Origin: an uncultured Desulfotomaculum sp.
Lineage (GTDB): Bacteria; Bacillota; Desulfotomaculia; Desulfotomaculales; Desulfotomaculaceae
Length of the DNA stretch: 32,187 nt
NCBI GenBank assembly: GCA_946411205.1
Contig: CAMKDG010000031.1
Location: 1-32,187, forward strand
Reading direction: 5' to 3'
Both the position numbers and the translations under genes were made by a program. Numbering within the stretch: position 1 is the first letter of the stretch; every line of letters begins with the position of its first letter. Positions 8,205 through 28,365 of this stretch are shown in pieces. A model generated the notes under the pieces. It did no database searches, had not been told where the DNA came from, and saw only the letters and a program-made list of their open reading frames with translations.

Positions 8205-10751
8205 TTATAGGACTCCCCGGTAATAATGTCCTTTGGTAATGCCTGCGGTGCTAATTCCGGCCAAATCTTCTTTGGCCTCTTTATCTTTCCGTTCGTCCCG
8301 GATCCCGTGCTGGTAGCGGTTGATGGCTTTATGGTAATGATTAACGGTTTTGGCTACGTAACCATGATCGTTATTTTTGGCTTCGATGCGCAGCACCGAG
8401 ATGCCGGCTTCCAGCAGGGTCGGCACATCTTCAATGACGCAAAGTTCTTTGGCATTAAACAAGTGCATGCGGCAATACTGATCCACCTCCAGGGGGAATA
8501 CCAAACCCATCCGGTCCTTGAGACCACAGGTTTTGTTATGACAAGGCCCGGAACATCTTTTCCCGGTGCTTAATCCCCCCAGAATACTGCCCACCGGACA
8601 ATATTTGGTGTTCATCAGGGGTAGTGCCCCCTGCACAATAGCTTCCAAAGGCATCGGTCTGGTGCCCGCTAGCTCCTGAATTTGTCGCATGGTTAATTCC
8701 GGGGATAAAACCGCCCGCTCCACTCCCTGCTCTTTTAAATAATGCAGGGTGGTGGAATTAAAAACATTGAGCGTAAAATCGCCAATCACCGGTTTATCGC
8801 TGTACTCTTTAAGCAGCTTAAGCAGCCCCAGATTTCCCACCAAAATTCCGTCCAAGGGTAGTTCTTTGATTCCCTCCAATAGGGAGGTAAAGGCCTTTAG
8901 TTCCTGATCATGGAGGATTCTCGGTGAGTTCAGCACCAAAGCTACACCGTTTTTCTGGCAAAACTCCAGCCCTGCCTCCAGTTCCTTCTGTTTGATAATT
9001 CCTTTGGAACGGTAACTTTCGCCGCCAAAATAAACGATATCAGCACCGTAGCTGACCGCTGCCTCCAAAGAAGTAAGATCGGTTACATTGACAGCCAACG
9101 TAGGCTGAGTTTGTTTCGGTCCGGTCATCGTGGCAAGTTCCCTTACGGAATACTGCAGGCGCTCCCGAAAAATATGCTCCGCCACACCAGAACGCCGCTG
9201 GCGTCTTGCCCTTTTTTGTTCCAAATCAGCCAACACGCTGCGACGCAGTTCGTTAATTTCCCGCATCGGCAGGATTACATTACCTTGTAAATCAACTTGC
9301 AATTCTCCCAGGGCAAAGGGCGTATTTCCTAATCGGTTCAGTTGGTCCTGCAAGAACTCCCCGGTTAAGGGTCGTTTCACGGCTTCCTGCCCCAACTCTT
9401 CGCTGTGACCTTCCGCAGTTAAGCCGCTATCATCGGTAACTCTCATATACATGGGTTCGTCGATTTTAGCCCTGACGAAAAATTCCAGGGGAATTTTTTT
9501 AGTTTCCCGGCTGGAAGTAAAGGTTTCTCTGGCTCGTTCCATTAACTCAGCATCGTGGGTTTTAAAAACTCGGTCACCGGGTCGGATTTTGCCTGGGATG
9601 GCTAAGCCAACCAGTGTACCGGCCTCGGCAGATTCAGCGGGTTTGCCGTATACCAGCATACTGCTAACTTCAATGCCTGTGCGACCACCTTCGCTAACCC
9701 ATACTTCGATACCATCTCCCAGCCGCAGGGGTTCCTCCAGCAGGATTTCCAAGGTTTTATGCTTAGCGTTAAAGCCCTTGACGCGTCCCAGTCGCAGGCC
9801 GCGGTTATTGGGCCGTTTATAACTCATCAAATCTTTACCGGGGTTACCAAGAAAATAGCCCGGGCTGAAATCTCTGTTAAAAATTTGAGCTAGTTCACGG
9901 GCTTCATTCTCCTGCACAAAGAAACCTTCGCTGTCTGCCAAAGCTCGGTCAATTAAATTTCGATAGGTCCGGATCACTGTAGCCACATATTCCGGCCGCT
10001 TCATGCGACCCTCAATTTTGAAGGAATTAATCCCCGCTGCCATAAGCTGGGGAATCTGAGCACTGGTGTTAATATCCCGGGGGCTTAATAAATACTCGCC
10101 TACCTGGGCGGGGTCTGCCAGGTTACGCCCCCGCTCGTCCACCAACTGGTACTGCAAGCGACAGGGTTGGGCACACTTACCCCGATTACCACTACGGCCG
10201 CCGATCATACTGGACATCAGGCATTGACCGGAGTAGCAGACACAAAGCGCCCCATGAATAAAGGCTTCTAAATCTGCTCCAGTCTCCCTTTTAATGGCGG
10301 CAATTTCCTCTAGCTCCATCTCTCTGGCCAAGACGATACGGTCGAAACCAGACTGCTGCATTAACTGTACCCCAGCGGTATTGTGGACAGTCATTTGGGT
10401 GCTGGAGTGAATGGTTAGTTCAGGAATGGTTTCCTTGGCCAGCTTAGCCAAACCTAAGTCTTGAAGGATCGCAGCATCCACTCCAACATTATGCAGGAAG
10501 TGGAGGAAGCCCAGGGCTTCCTCCAGCTCATGATTCGCTACTAAAATATTGACGGTGACATAGATTTTGACCCCGCGGATATGGGCGTATTCCACTGCCC
10601 TTGCTAGCTGTTGATTATCAAAGTTACTGGCTGACTGCCTGGCATTGAACAGCTTACCACCCAGGTAAACGGCATCGGCGCCATTTTGCACCGCTGCCAC
10701 CAGGGCTTCCCAGCTACCTGCCGGCGCCAGCAACTCGGGTCTTTGGGTCAT
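8205..10751 (-). CDS. Peptidase U32 family protein with two U32 modules (RlhA-like)
   Basis: Members of family U32, such as RlhA and TrhP, act in prephenate-dependent hydroxylation of rRNA or tRNA, not as ordinary proteases. The 848-aa product contains a first U32 module (about 1-300) with the signature HGALCVCYSGQCLMS and GNRGKCAQPCRLQY. A middle segment of DUF3656 type follows (about 390-520), then a second, degenerate U32-like module (about 560-800) with its own cysteine set (KYCPVGSILGG, CSGPCHNKTCGLKDR, DQYCRMH). Both cysteine sets could hold an Fe-S cluster. ATG at 10751 is preferred over the upstream TTG, because the TTG lies within the TTGGAGGT ribosome-binding site. It sits between the NIF3-like gene and mutS2. 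The exact RNA target is not certain. Confidence 0.85.
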   Translation of the reverse strand: MTQRPELLAPAGSWEALVAAVQNGADAVYLGGKLFNARQSASNFDNQQLARAVEYAHIRGVKIYVTVNILVANHELEEALGFLHFLHNVGVDAAILQDLGLAKLAKETIPELTIHSSTQMTVHNTAGVQLMQQSGFDRIVLAREMELEEIAAIKRETGADLEAFIHGALCVCYSGQCLMSSMIGGRSGNRGKCAQPCRLQYQLVDERGRNLADPAQVGEYLLSPRDINTSAQIPQLMAAGINSFKIEGRMKRPEYVATVIRTYRNLIDRALADSEGFFVQENEARELAQIFNRDFSPGYFLGNPGKDLMSYKRPNNRGLRLGRVKGFNAKHKTLEILLEEPLRLGDGIEVWVSEGGRTGIEVSSMLVYGKPAESAEAGTLVGLAIPGKIRPGDRVFKTHDAELMERARETFTSSRETKKIPLEFFVRAKIDEPMYMRVTDDSGLTAEGHSEELGQEAVKRPLTGEFLQDQLNRLGNTPFALGELQVDLQGNVILPMREINELRRSVLADLEQKRARRQRRSGVAEHIFRERLQYSVRELATMTGPKQTQPTLAVNVTDLTSLEAAVSYGADIVYFGGESYRSKGIIKQKELEAGLEFCQKNGVALVLNSPRILHDQELKAFTSLLEGIKELPLDGILVGNLGLLKLLKEYSDKPVIGDFTLNVFNSTTLHYLKEQGVERAVLSPELTMRQIQELAGTRPMPLEAIVQGALPLMNTKYCPVGSILGGLSTGKRCSGPCHNKTCGLKDRMGLVFPLEVDQYCRMHLFNAKELCVIEDVPTLLEAGISVLRIEAKNNDHGYVAKTVNHYHKAINRYQHGIRDERKDKEAKEDLAGISTAGITKGHYYRGVL

Positions 10752-25806: not shown

Positions 25807-26712
25807 CTATTGCTGATGCTTTTGGCATAATTTGCAACCGTTACATTCACTTACCTTATCTTCAAAAACATTCTTGATGGTATCTAGGGTTGAATCTATT
25901 CCGGGTTGCACACCATAATGAAAAACAATCTTATTCGGAGCAATGGTGATTAAAGCGCTAATTAATAAATCTTCATAATTAATTTCATTGTCCATTACAT
26001 CCAGGATAAAGCCTTCTAAAAACTCACTGTCGATGGGGCGATGATTTTCATCATAGAGCTTATACGTTCCCCTTTCACTGACCAAGACATTGACCAAGGG
26101 CACTTTAGAATCCTGAATTTCCACAAAATATTTTAACAGTTGGATAAATTCCCGGTATTCTCGTTCCATAAGAAATTCGTCTACAGCCTGGTCCACTGCT
26201 TCTTTAATTTCATTAACATATTCTTTTAACCGAAAACGAACAAAGCCGTCAATAACAATACTATTGTTTTGCTCTAAAAATTCTACCAGTCTCTTAATAA
26301 TAAAATGCTTGCGATCCCGGCGGTCCATTTTTCCCGGATACATTTTAACACCATTAGTATAATCCAAGGTATATTGCAGAATGGTTTTCTTTTCTTCCTC
26401 ATTGAAATAATAATAAGTCTCACGAATGATATCCTTTAGCAGAGCCCTTTCCCATTGATTCATGATGATATCGGATAAAATATCTGCTACAAAATGCTTA
26501 AATAAGATTTCTTCATCCTGATGTCTCCCACTGCATAAATTTCCGTTGAAATCACAGGATAAAAATGTGATGTTACCGGCAGGATTTTCAGTCATTTTAA
26601 TTCTAATTCTTTCACCCTCATCGACTCTCAACTCTCTGCCAAGCCGGTCTTTCAACAACTCTATATGCTGGGTGGCACCAATAGAGAGACATTGATTCAT
26701 CTCCTCTATCAC
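25807..26712 (-). CDS. ytxC: Putative sporulation protein YtxC
   Basis: Resembles the YtxC family (annotated as putative sporulation protein) of spore-forming Firmicutes, encoded next to thrS in Bacillus as it is near thrS here. The 301-aa soluble, mainly helical protein includes FIIKRLVEFLEQNNSIVIDGFVRFRLKEY and AVDQAVDEFLMEREYREFIQLLKYFVEIQ in the middle, a region typical of the family. It ends in SECNGCKLCQKHQ with three Cys. The start is GTG at 26712, with AAGGA just upstream; the next ATG four codons later lies directly against a GAGGAG and is less suitable. The biochemical role is unknown. Confidence 0.78.
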   Translation of the reverse strand: MIEEMNQCLSIGATQHIELLKDRLGRELRVDEGERIRIKMTENPAGNITFLSCDFNGNLCSGRHQDEEILFKHFVADILSDIIMNQWERALLKDIIRETYYYFNEEEKKTILQYTLDYTNGVKMYPGKMDRRDRKHFIIKRLVEFLEQNNSIVIDGFVRFRLKEYVNEIKEAVDQAVDEFLMEREYREFIQLLKYFVEIQDSKVPLVNVLVSERGTYKLYDENHRPIDSEFLEGFILDVMDNEINYEDLLISALITIAPNKIVFHYGVQPGIDSTLDTIKNVFEDKVSECNGCKLCQKHQQ

Positions 26713-26874
26713 CCCTTCCTTCTACTATTAGTATATGAGAGGCAATTCTTTGTATACTGGTGCAAAATTGGCGAAAATTTTAAAATACCTTCTTCTACAT
26801 GCATTATAAGCAGAAATCAAGGGTGCTATCCCATGTAAAAATTATGGATCAATCCTGTGCTTGGAGTAAGTAGA
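26713..26874. other. Intergenic region upstream of ytxC, possible sporulation-type promoter
   Basis: No gene is seen. On the minus strand AGTATA, 17 bp and then TATACTA weakly resemble sigma-F/G elements in front of ytxC. The match is too loose to be called a promoter. Confidence 0.2.
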
Positions 26875-27843
26875 TTATTTTTGCAATAGATAGACAACCA
26901 CCACCACGATAAGAGCTACTAATGCTAGAATAGGCTGCCAATTATCCGAAGATTTTTTTTCTAAGGTCGACTGCGATTTCGCTCTGGCTAAAGTGTCTGT
27001 TGGTTGCAAAAAGGATGGTTCCAACATCTGTCTGGTGGACTCTACGATACAGCTTTTAGGAACAAAGGAAGCTCCTTGATACTTTTTCTTTTTATTGTTT
27101 TTTAGCGTAGGACCTAGGATATCTGGGGTGTTAGGACGCTCTAGATAGGTGTATTTTACAAGTGGTTTTTGATTAGGTTTTGCAAATGGTTGAGAAACTG
27201 TCTGGGTAATGCAGGAAGCAGGAATAAAATCCTCTGAACTTTTTGGTTTAGGATAACCTCGTTTACGCTCACTGATAATATCCGGTGACCGGTTAAGGGG
27301 ATTTGGATACGGATTGGTAAAGACCAAAGGCTTTACTTCCAGAGTAAAATGATAAACCGGTGCTGGAGACTCCGTAATACAGCTTAGGGGAACAAATACC
27401 GGAGATTTTTTTCTCTTTTTCCGTGGCTTGCTCTGCTCTAAAAGGATTTGATAACAGGGTTCCTTGGGTTGATGCAAGCTTTGTTTTACAGATTTATTTA
27501 TTTGCTCCTTTGCATAAGGTAATGAAACTACCGGCGTAACACAGCTGGTTGGTACAAATGCCTCTTGAAGTTTCATTTTTTTCTTCTTATTGTACTTTTT
27601 AGCTGCCGGTAACACAGTTTTTCTACAGGTATCGCCGCAGGCTAACGGCAAAGAAATCTCCGTTTGAATACTACTGCTGTCCACAAACAAATCTTTCATT
27701 ACCGGAGACTGCTTCTTTCCACGATATACAATATCCGGTACTTGAACCGGTTCACTGGCTGATGCAAACAAAACGATGTCTCTTTTTTTCTCCACTTGAA
27801 CAGGTTTGACGGTTTTCACATTTTTTTTCTTCTTTCTAGCCAA
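26875..27843 (-). CDS. Unrecognised tail-anchored protein with five Lys-cluster/FVPxSC repeats
   Basis: A 322-aa protein I do not recognise. It begins MARKKKKNVK and ends in one hydrophobic helix (about residues 302-320, WQPILALVALIVVVVVYLL) followed by two residues, so it is probably tail-anchored with its bulk in the cytoplasm. Five repeats of roughly 43-56 residues carry a core F-[VI]-P-x-S-C-[IV] at 53-59 (degenerate, FVDSSSI), 96-102, 150-156, 206-212 and 260-266. Four have the Cys (101, 155, 211, 265). Most cores are preceded by a lysine/arginine cluster, and three repeats contain PDI. No signal peptide or known enzyme motif is present. TTG at 27843 is chosen because AAAGGGGTG lies 6 nt upstream. 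Its place next to ytxC hints at a sporulation role, which is only a guess. Confidence 0.75.
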   Translation of the reverse strand: MARKKKKNVKTVKPVQVEKKRDIVLFASASEPVQVPDIVYRGKKQSPVMKDLFVDSSSIQTEISLPLACGDTCRKTVLPAAKKYNKKKKMKLQEAFVPTSCVTPVVSLPYAKEQINKSVKQSLHQPKEPCYQILLEQSKPRKKRKKSPVFVPLSCITESPAPVYHFTLEVKPLVFTNPYPNPLNRSPDIISERKRGYPKPKSSEDFIPASCITQTVSQPFAKPNQKPLVKYTYLERPNTPDILGPTLKNNKKKKYQGASFVPKSCIVESTRQMLEPSFLQPTDTLARAKSQSTLEKKSSDNWQPILALVALIVVVVVYLLQK

Positions 27844-27930
27844 AAAACCCACCCCTTTTCTTTGGCTTAACAATCTTTTAAAAAGTATATTAAGCTTCCC
27901 TCAGAAAGATATTAACTTTTTGAATTTTCT

Positions 27931-27983: not shown

Positions 27984-28107
27984 TTATGCAAATCAAAAGT
28001 TTTTAATACTTGCTGATTGCTTAAAACAAGATTTTATCTTTTATCCCTGGTAAAAGCACCATTTTTAGGATTGGCTAATAGTATGGAAAAAAAGGTAGGT
28101 GCTTCTG

Positions 28108-28365
28108 ATGCTTAAAGAAATCGAAGAGATACGGCTTGAATCGGAACGTGCGATTAAAGAGTTACGTCAGCATATTTACGGGCTTCAATCCAATTTTTTT
28201 ATGCGCTGGGATGCCAAAGCCACCATTAAAAAGGCAGAAATAAAAATCGAAATGATTCAACAATTATTAGTAAAATTAGAAAGTCTGTCCGAACAAATTA
28301 ACCCGGTGGTTAACGATTTAAAATCTATTATTGGTATCAGAATGGTTAATTCAAGGAAAAAATAA
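28108..28365 (+). CDS. Small coiled-coil protein of unknown function
   Basis: An 85-aa charged, helical protein (MLKEIEEIRLESERAIKEL...). The heptad-like spacing of Leu and Ile, especially in IKIEMIQQLLVKLESLSEQI, suggests a coiled coil. There is no membrane helix, signal peptide or cysteine. The ATG at 28108 has AGGTG 6 nt upstream; a GTG three codons earlier overlaps that site. It is on the plus strand, divergent from the repeat-protein gene, and is followed by a strong terminator, so it is a single-gene transcript. The domain is not recognised. Confidence 0.7.
   Translation: MLKEIEEIRLESERAIKELRQHIYGLQSNFFMRWDAKATIKKAEIKIEMIQQLLVKLESLSEQINPVVNDLKSIIGIRMVNSRKK

Follow-up and report, generated by a model that had tools for sequence, protein, structure and literature searches.

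The DNA analyzed here is a single stretch of 32,187 nucleotides (the window) from a genome of the genus Desulforamulus, to which D. aeronauticus is the nearest among the genomes searched. On the reverse strand lies a gene for a protein that repeats the core F-[VI]-P-x-S-C-[IV] and ends in a predicted membrane helix, followed downstream on the same strand by ytxC (Table 1). The coordinates, strand and frame that a preliminary description had read from the letters alone, including a TTG start behind AAAAGGGGTGGG, all proved correct. As this start is common to all seven Desulforamulus copies, the ribosome-binding site ahead of it is conserved and the frame is under purifying selection, the reading frame is a real gene, found in one copy per carrier genome. 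In comparison with the D. aeronauticus copy, whose product is 82% identical to the window protein, dN/dS is 0.34 for the whole gene and 0.47 for the tail, and the corresponding value for the adjoining ytxC is 0.04. The FVPxSC gene thus evolves fast yet remains constrained by purifying selection.

Table 1. Positions in the window of the FVPxSC gene, its encoded features and the neighboring elements
Feature	Position	Strand	Remarks
FVPxSC-repeat protein CDS	26875..27843	-	322 aa + stop; TTG start 27841-27843; stop 26875-26877
Ribosome-binding site AAAAGGGGTGGG	27848..27859	-	near-identical in 7/7 Desulforamulus copies
TTAATATACT, -10-like element	27884..27893	-	exact in 6/7 Desulforamulus copies; one mismatch in L006
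ATCTTT, at fixed distance from TTAATATACT	27905..27910	-	present in 7/7 copies as well as in gene-less G004 and G006; no match to the sigma consensus strings tried
Degenerate first core FVDSSSI, residue 53	27667..27687	-	without Pro and Cys; Cys in 4/7 Desulforamulus proteins
Core FVPTSCV, residue 96	27538..27558	-	KKKK ahead; motif scan
Core FVPLSCI, residue 150	27376..27396	-	RKKRKK ahead; motif scan
Core FIPASCI, residue 206	27208..27228	-	motif scan
Core FVPKSCI, residue 260	27046..27066	-	PDILGP..KKKK ahead; last unit; motif scan
C-terminal membrane helix, residues 303-321 (predicted tail anchor)	26881..26937	-	hydropathy, AlphaFold
ytxC (PF08812, E 1e-77)	25807..26712	-	downstream of FVPxSC gene
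Promoter-like element of ytxC, GTATACA ... CATATACT	26730..26757	-	upstream of ytxC

Repeat array and tail helix

The FVPxSC protein is a repeat protein, with several homologous units per chain that are conserved among species. Four of the five cores previously proposed for the window protein are strict, and the first is the degenerate copy; with this copy included, the cores are spaced 43-56 aa apart. When the window protein was shuffled 200,000 times, one strict core arose in 50 shuffles and two in none, as compared with the four observed. The fuller repeat unit spans ~54 aa and can be written [PD]-[IV]-x-G-P ... [KR]3-4 ... F-V-P-x-S-C-[IT]-[TI] ... S-x-P-Y. The three PDI motifs described earlier are found at residues 36, 187 and 240, and "several" was a generous count for Y-x(3)-LE, of which there are two exact instances (residues 131 and 164) and one Y-x(2)-LE (residue 231).

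Across the 11 homologous proteins, 53 units were picked by a regular expression, which passes over variant cores, FVPPQC in L005 among them. Of these units, 51 have Cys at core position 6 and 44 have Pro at core position 3, counts that are biased because both positions belong to the search expression. Positions -9 and -8, which are not part of that expression, hold Lys or Arg in 45/53 and 40/53 units, respectively, so that the basic cluster noted ahead of the cores keeps a fixed register throughout the family, although in the window protein it is weak ahead of the first and fourth copies. Of the 76 cysteines in alignment A1, which has nine proteins, 43 belong to cores, and repeats and cysteines alike persist in homologues as distant as 22% identity. 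Among the seven Desulforamulus proteins, units at the same position are more alike (0.47 for the last unit, 0.37 for the penultimate) than are different units within one protein (0.22), indicating that the array is old and that each unit is separately maintained; the last unit is also more alike between species than the penultimate one. Relative to D. aeronauticus, dN/dS in the five cores is 0.16 vs 0.52 in the 12 residues preceding them, values that come from few sites. This difference argues that the conserved core, rather than bulk charge, is the functional part of the repeat.

The single C-terminal helix that had been described is borne out by hydropathy, for which the best 19-residue stretch of the window protein scores 2.61 and ends two residues from the C-terminus (the next best elsewhere reaches 0.86), and by AlphaFold, which models the helix at residues 303-321 (block pLDDT 82 and 91). 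Hydrophobicity peaks in a stretch that stops 1-3 residues short of the C-terminus in 10 of the 11 homologues, and the same 10 have the lone hydrophobic helix at the C-terminal end that predicts insertion as a tail anchor. The exception is the D. aquiferis copy (L007), whose open frame stops ahead of the helix; because this is a draft genome in which the ytxC match likewise falls into two pieces, the missing helix is possibly an assembly error.

The repeat-bearing arm is of a very different character. The pI of the 11 homologues ranges from 9.9 to 10.6, and 9/11 arms fall on the disordered side of the charge-hydropathy boundary. Structure prediction had been proposed as a way to learn whether the cores fold; the AlphaFold model, computed from an 11-row alignment, has no confident fold in the repeat array (mean pLDDT 49.6, pTM 0.13) and is confident only for the helix; one-turn helices at the last three cores are of low confidence and unreliable. 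According to the positive-inside rule, the basic side of a membrane protein stays in the cytoplasm, and the high pI together with the C-terminal helix would therefore place the basic arm there.

Distribution and gene neighborhoods

The window protein matches no family in Pfam, NCBIfam or PHROGs, and searches with all 11 members return isolated matches, each in a single member (best E 0.019 in NCBIfam, 0.11 in Pfam and 0.086 in PHROGs). A profile search of the PDB with the family gives no match at E<=1. The earlier proposal of a new family is thus supported: no described family matches convincingly, and neither of the two results named in advance as counting against it, a confident family hit or homologues with unconserved repeats and cysteines, has turned up. 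In the literature searched, no paper brings together tail-anchored, sporulation, forespore and coat, and, judging by titles and the beginnings of abstracts, none of the papers found there on Desulforamulus spores is about this protein. Searches of phage, plasmid and viral-contig collections, one of them with a reach limited to close relatives, found no homologue.

Homologues occur in 11 of 113 whole genomes of the order. An HMM of these 11 finds the protein in 5 of 398 genomes across the phylum, all of them already known carriers. The carriers, which include D. aeronauticus, D. putei and D. aquiferis, comprise 7 of the 9 Desulforamulus genomes, with the window genome counted, and four genomes from family f3, of which three belong to genus g4 and one to g20; the gene is missing from at least two other members of f3 (G045 and G079). 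A profile of the single repeat, built from 41 of the 53 units, gives 3-5 matches in each carrier and isolated matches only elsewhere. In the order, at E<=0.05, it matches 17/113 genomes, namely the 11 carriers and six genomes with seven isolated matches; in the phylum, at E<=0.01, it matches 12/398, namely five carriers and seven genomes with one match each. The 14 non-carrier matches were considered as wider relatives and are read as chance. Eight were translated, through nine loci of which two coincide; seven of these fall in open frames of 41-132 aa that hold no array, and one (G230) falls in a 378-aa enzyme-like frame. The remaining six sit in frames of 27-76 aa.

It had been asked whether homologues occur only in spore-formers. 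SpoIVA and SASP genes are present in 11/11 carriers, in agreement with this expectation, but also in the 3/3 non-carriers tested, so that their presence does not discriminate. The FVPxSC gene is not essential for sporulation, because 2/9 Desulforamulus, at least two f3 and nearly all other searched genomes are without it.

In Desulforamulus the gene sits between a small conserved ORF and ytxC, the latter adjoining it in 7/7 carriers. The anticipated proximity to ytxC is thus general within this genus but is seen in 0/4 f3 carriers, ytxC lying there on a different contig. Expression of ytxC in C. perfringens is confined to sporulation, and deleting the gene gives fewer spores and almost abolishes germination (PMC9332280, excerpted text). 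The small ORF (88 aa, window 28099-28365, + strand, opposite to the FVPxSC gene) stands beside the locus in 9/9 Desulforamulus genomes; it was found in 0/5 f3 genomes searched, and its Pfam matches are weak and sub-threshold only. The two gene-less Desulforamulus genomes, G004 and G006, retain this ORF and ytxC as flanks. Between them ATCTTT...TTAATAT remains (TTAATATACT is exact in G004, with TTAATAT only in G006), G004 also keeps a Shine-Dalgarno-like trace, and the FVPxSC gene is gone. The empty site of G006 holds a 35-aa ORF with a hydrophobic C-terminus (L063 1783-1887, +), which might be left over from the tail anchor. In a ytxC tree of 12 genomes, constructed without G007, where the gene is split, and without G045, for lack of an extracted frame, G004 and G006 fall in two places, giving two changes on the best tree, of which the well-supported branches force only one.

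Family f3 represents a different setting. In 4/4 copies the FVPxSC gene stands head-to-head with a seven-gene glycan operon encoding a Gfo/Idh/MocA oxidoreductase, a FemAB/GNAT protein, a glycosyltransferase with DUF3880, LpxC, a DegT aminotransferase, WbqC and an ATP-grasp protein, the families having been assigned by Pfam/NCBIfam on the L066 copy and the other f3 copies matched to it by eye. The aminotransferase is PseC/LegC-like, below the curated cut-off, and the DUF3880 glycosyltransferase is one that we take to resemble CgeB. In genomes G032 and G020 of family f12, CotE (PF10628) genes and an APH-type kinase are found at a distance of 1-3 kb from the operon. The CotE genes beside the kinase are at L087:2431-5100 in G032 (two CotE) and L086:3072-4857 in G020 (one scanned). 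When upstream regions were scored against sigma consensus strings, sigma-K gave 9/9 for the G032 operon and for one G032 cotE (with 1 and 2 of 100 shuffles, respectively, scoring as well) and 8/9 for the second cotE (5/100).

Other genes occupy the place beside the operon elsewhere. In family f5 (G075 and G028), the gene right ahead of the operon (L088:6726-7496 and L089:7070-7576, both +) ends in a long Lys/Asp/His/Cys repeat tail, of KDHKDCKEHKDHKEPP type in G075, and fills the slot that the FVPxSC gene has in f3. The CotE proximity in f12, the sigma-K-like promoters of G032 and these repeat-tail genes together suggest that the glycan operon is linked to the spore and has a slot taken by repeat proteins. 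Directly ahead of the operon in G032 is the gene for an Asn/Thr-rich protein with no Pfam match (L087:12776-13651, -), and an ORF likewise without identification is found at the corresponding place in G020 (L086:13117-13524). In G006, only short fragments resembling glycan-operon genes are seen (L092, about 9378-10413).

Two stronger claims about the operon were set aside. The case for its control by sigma-K is weak, since sigma-A suits the first G032 cotE at least as well (11/12, 0/100 shuffles) and the f3 operon upstream regions, at 7-8/9 for sigma-K, do no better than shuffles (34-94/100 as good), with no significant sigma-K or sigma-E match in these regions. Nor do gene and operon strictly co-occur: LpxC, used as the operon marker, is present in 6/11 carriers (2/7 of those in Desulforamulus) vs 6/102 non-carriers (one a fragment), the f3 genomes are close kin, and G045 of f3 has the operon without the FVPxSC gene.

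Promoter regions

Four sigma models were scored on the upstream regions of the 11 FVPxSC genes, so that single p-values near 0.05 are meaningless. The sigma-E spacing is given, and the conservation of sigma-E recognition residues through Bacillus and Clostridium is argued, in PMC517825 (excerpted text). Three of the four f3 genes carry GAATATT-N13-CATTTATT, which scores 14/15 for sigma-E (0, 0 and 1 of 100 shuffles as good), three hits that are homologous, hence not independent, and that come from 44 model-by-gene tests. The fourth copy (L023) scores 12/15 at the corresponding place. The -35 element starts 50-51 bp ahead of the start codon, which is the spacing of the spoIVA promoter; in f3, spoIVA itself scores 14/15 for sigma-E in 4/5 copies. 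Such sites are rare in the f3 loci, where 8 positions out of 150,768 score >=14 to the sigma-E consensus. Among 101 ORF upstream regions in these loci, only that of the FVPxSC gene in L067 reaches 14, the L065 and L066 sites having been left out of this count because mechanical ORF calling placed these two starts too far upstream.

A match of this kind is missing from Desulforamulus. For its FVPxSC upstream regions, the window included, none of the four models clearly beats shuffles (best sigma-E 11-12/15, with 7 to 96 of 100 shuffles as good). The Desulforamulus spoIVA genes have TCATAAA-N13-CATATATA in 8/9 copies read. The element ahead of ytxC recurs as CATATACT upstream of 8/8 other Desulforamulus copies of that gene, and its window version scores 13/15 for sigma-E (21/100 shuffles as good) and 11/12 for sigma-G (3/100). 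The preliminary guess of a spore protein is consequently left with indirect evidence, consisting of the f3 operon, the CotE proximity in f12, the f3 sigma-E-like sites and the ytxC neighborhood, and without a sigma match in Desulforamulus. This promoter mismatch is the main gap in the spore reading.

Possible roles and known systems

The reading that we favor, with belief and doubt about evenly weighed, is that the FVPxSC protein is a mother-cell, membrane-tethered, disordered and multivalent scaffold of the spore coat. Transcription would take place in the mother cell under a sigma-E type of control, the tail would insert in the outer forespore membrane, and the basic, flexible arm would extend into the cytoplasm of the mother cell, the site of coat deposition. 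Each basic patch with its hydrophobic FVPxSC core would form a docking motif present in three to six copies per chain, enabling one chain to gather several copies of a putative coat (or coat-glycan) partner near the membrane. After mother-cell lysis and spore oxidation, the array could become locked by disulfides through its cysteines. In f3, the protein may work with the adjacent glycan operon.

Three other roles must be weighed, each of which we regard as unlikely. The protein could be a spore-surface structural glycoprotein modified by the f3 glycan operon, like the crust proteins of B. subtilis, with the tail anchor transient or used for sorting. Its head-to-head position in all four f3 copies and the presence in the operon of the DUF3880 glycosyltransferase, LpxC, WbqC and a sub-cut-off PseC/LegC-like aminotransferase would suit such a role, which sits poorly with the five of seven Desulforamulus carriers that have no LpxC and with the f3 genome that has the operon and not the gene. 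Of similarly low probability is a membrane-bound adaptor outside sporulation, in which FVPxSC docks a soluble enzyme and the ytxC and glycan-operon neighborhoods arise by chance. The narrow distribution, the different neighbors in the two families and the want of a sporulation consensus in Desulforamulus are what such an adaptor would lead one to expect; chance would, however, have had to place the gene beside spore-linked genes in two unrelated places and ahead of it, in f3, a sigma-E-like site seldom seen elsewhere in these loci. Also improbable is a tether, vegetative or in the forespore, for an acidic polymer (DNA, RNA, polyphosphate or anionic lipid) bound by the basic patches with FVPxSC as spacer, since the net positive charge, the fixed register of the basic cluster and the lack of a recognized sporulation promoter in Desulforamulus are countered by a non-basic core that, on few sites, varies least, the reverse of pure charge binding, and by f3 elements spaced like those of spoIVA (sigma-E) and not like those of SASP genes (sigma-G, judged by eye from 12 of 30 SASP loci, L093-L104).

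Under the favored coat-scaffold reading, a bolder and distinctly more tentative proposal is that the protein typifies a new spore morphogenetic class, in which a disordered multivalent arm with a C-terminal anchor in the outer forespore membrane would use Lys-patch/FVPxSC units to recruit coat- or glycan-assembly proteins before being locked by disulfides. Such a class might be a clade-specific addition to, or partial replacement of, the known coat-basement organizers. To our knowledge, little is known of coat assembly in spore-forming Firmicutes beyond model species. For the environmentally important spore-formers that reduce sulfate, the FVPxSC protein would offer a way to study coat attachment at the outer forespore membrane and the tie between the coat and a spore-linked glycan pathway (LpxC, WbqC and the DUF3880 glycosyltransferase), and the repeat profile and carrier list make the coat reading open to spore proteomics.

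Comparison with known systems illustrates both likenesses and departures. YtxC (PF08812), the product of a sporulation gene, is a neighbor in Desulforamulus and not in f3, and the FVPxSC protein contains no YtxC match. In the crust system of B. subtilis, the gene for the structural protein CgeA lies next to glycan genes (cgeAB-cgeCDE; PMC7439481, excerpted text), much as the FVPxSC gene does in f3. What sets the f3 operon apart is its LpxC, WbqC, FemAB and ATP-grasp genes, and it is missing from most Desulforamulus carriers; here, CgeA was compared by description. The C. difficile proteins CdeC and CdeM, described as cysteine-rich exosporium proteins of which CdeC is reported, by title, to self-assemble (PMC7677010 and PMC6101409), are likewise cysteine-bearing morphogenetic proteins of a spore layer. 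In the FVPxSC protein, by contrast, the core cysteines are single and ~54 aa apart and a tail anchor is added, and no homology appears in Pfam, NCBIfam or the PDB, the comparison with CdeC being again by description.

Among the key determinants of outer-coat pattern in B. subtilis is CotG; the serine/lysine repeats of CotG and CotB are phosphorylated by CotH (PMC7821199, excerpted text). The FVPxSC unit differs from these in its near-invariant Cys and its FVPxSC core, the protein has a membrane tail and no repeats of the serine/lysine type, and Pfam and NCBIfam give no CotG or CotB family match. As a protein of lysine-bearing repeats, it would nonetheless work most like these repeat-rich coat proteins or the cysteine-bearing CdeC, while being placed with neither.
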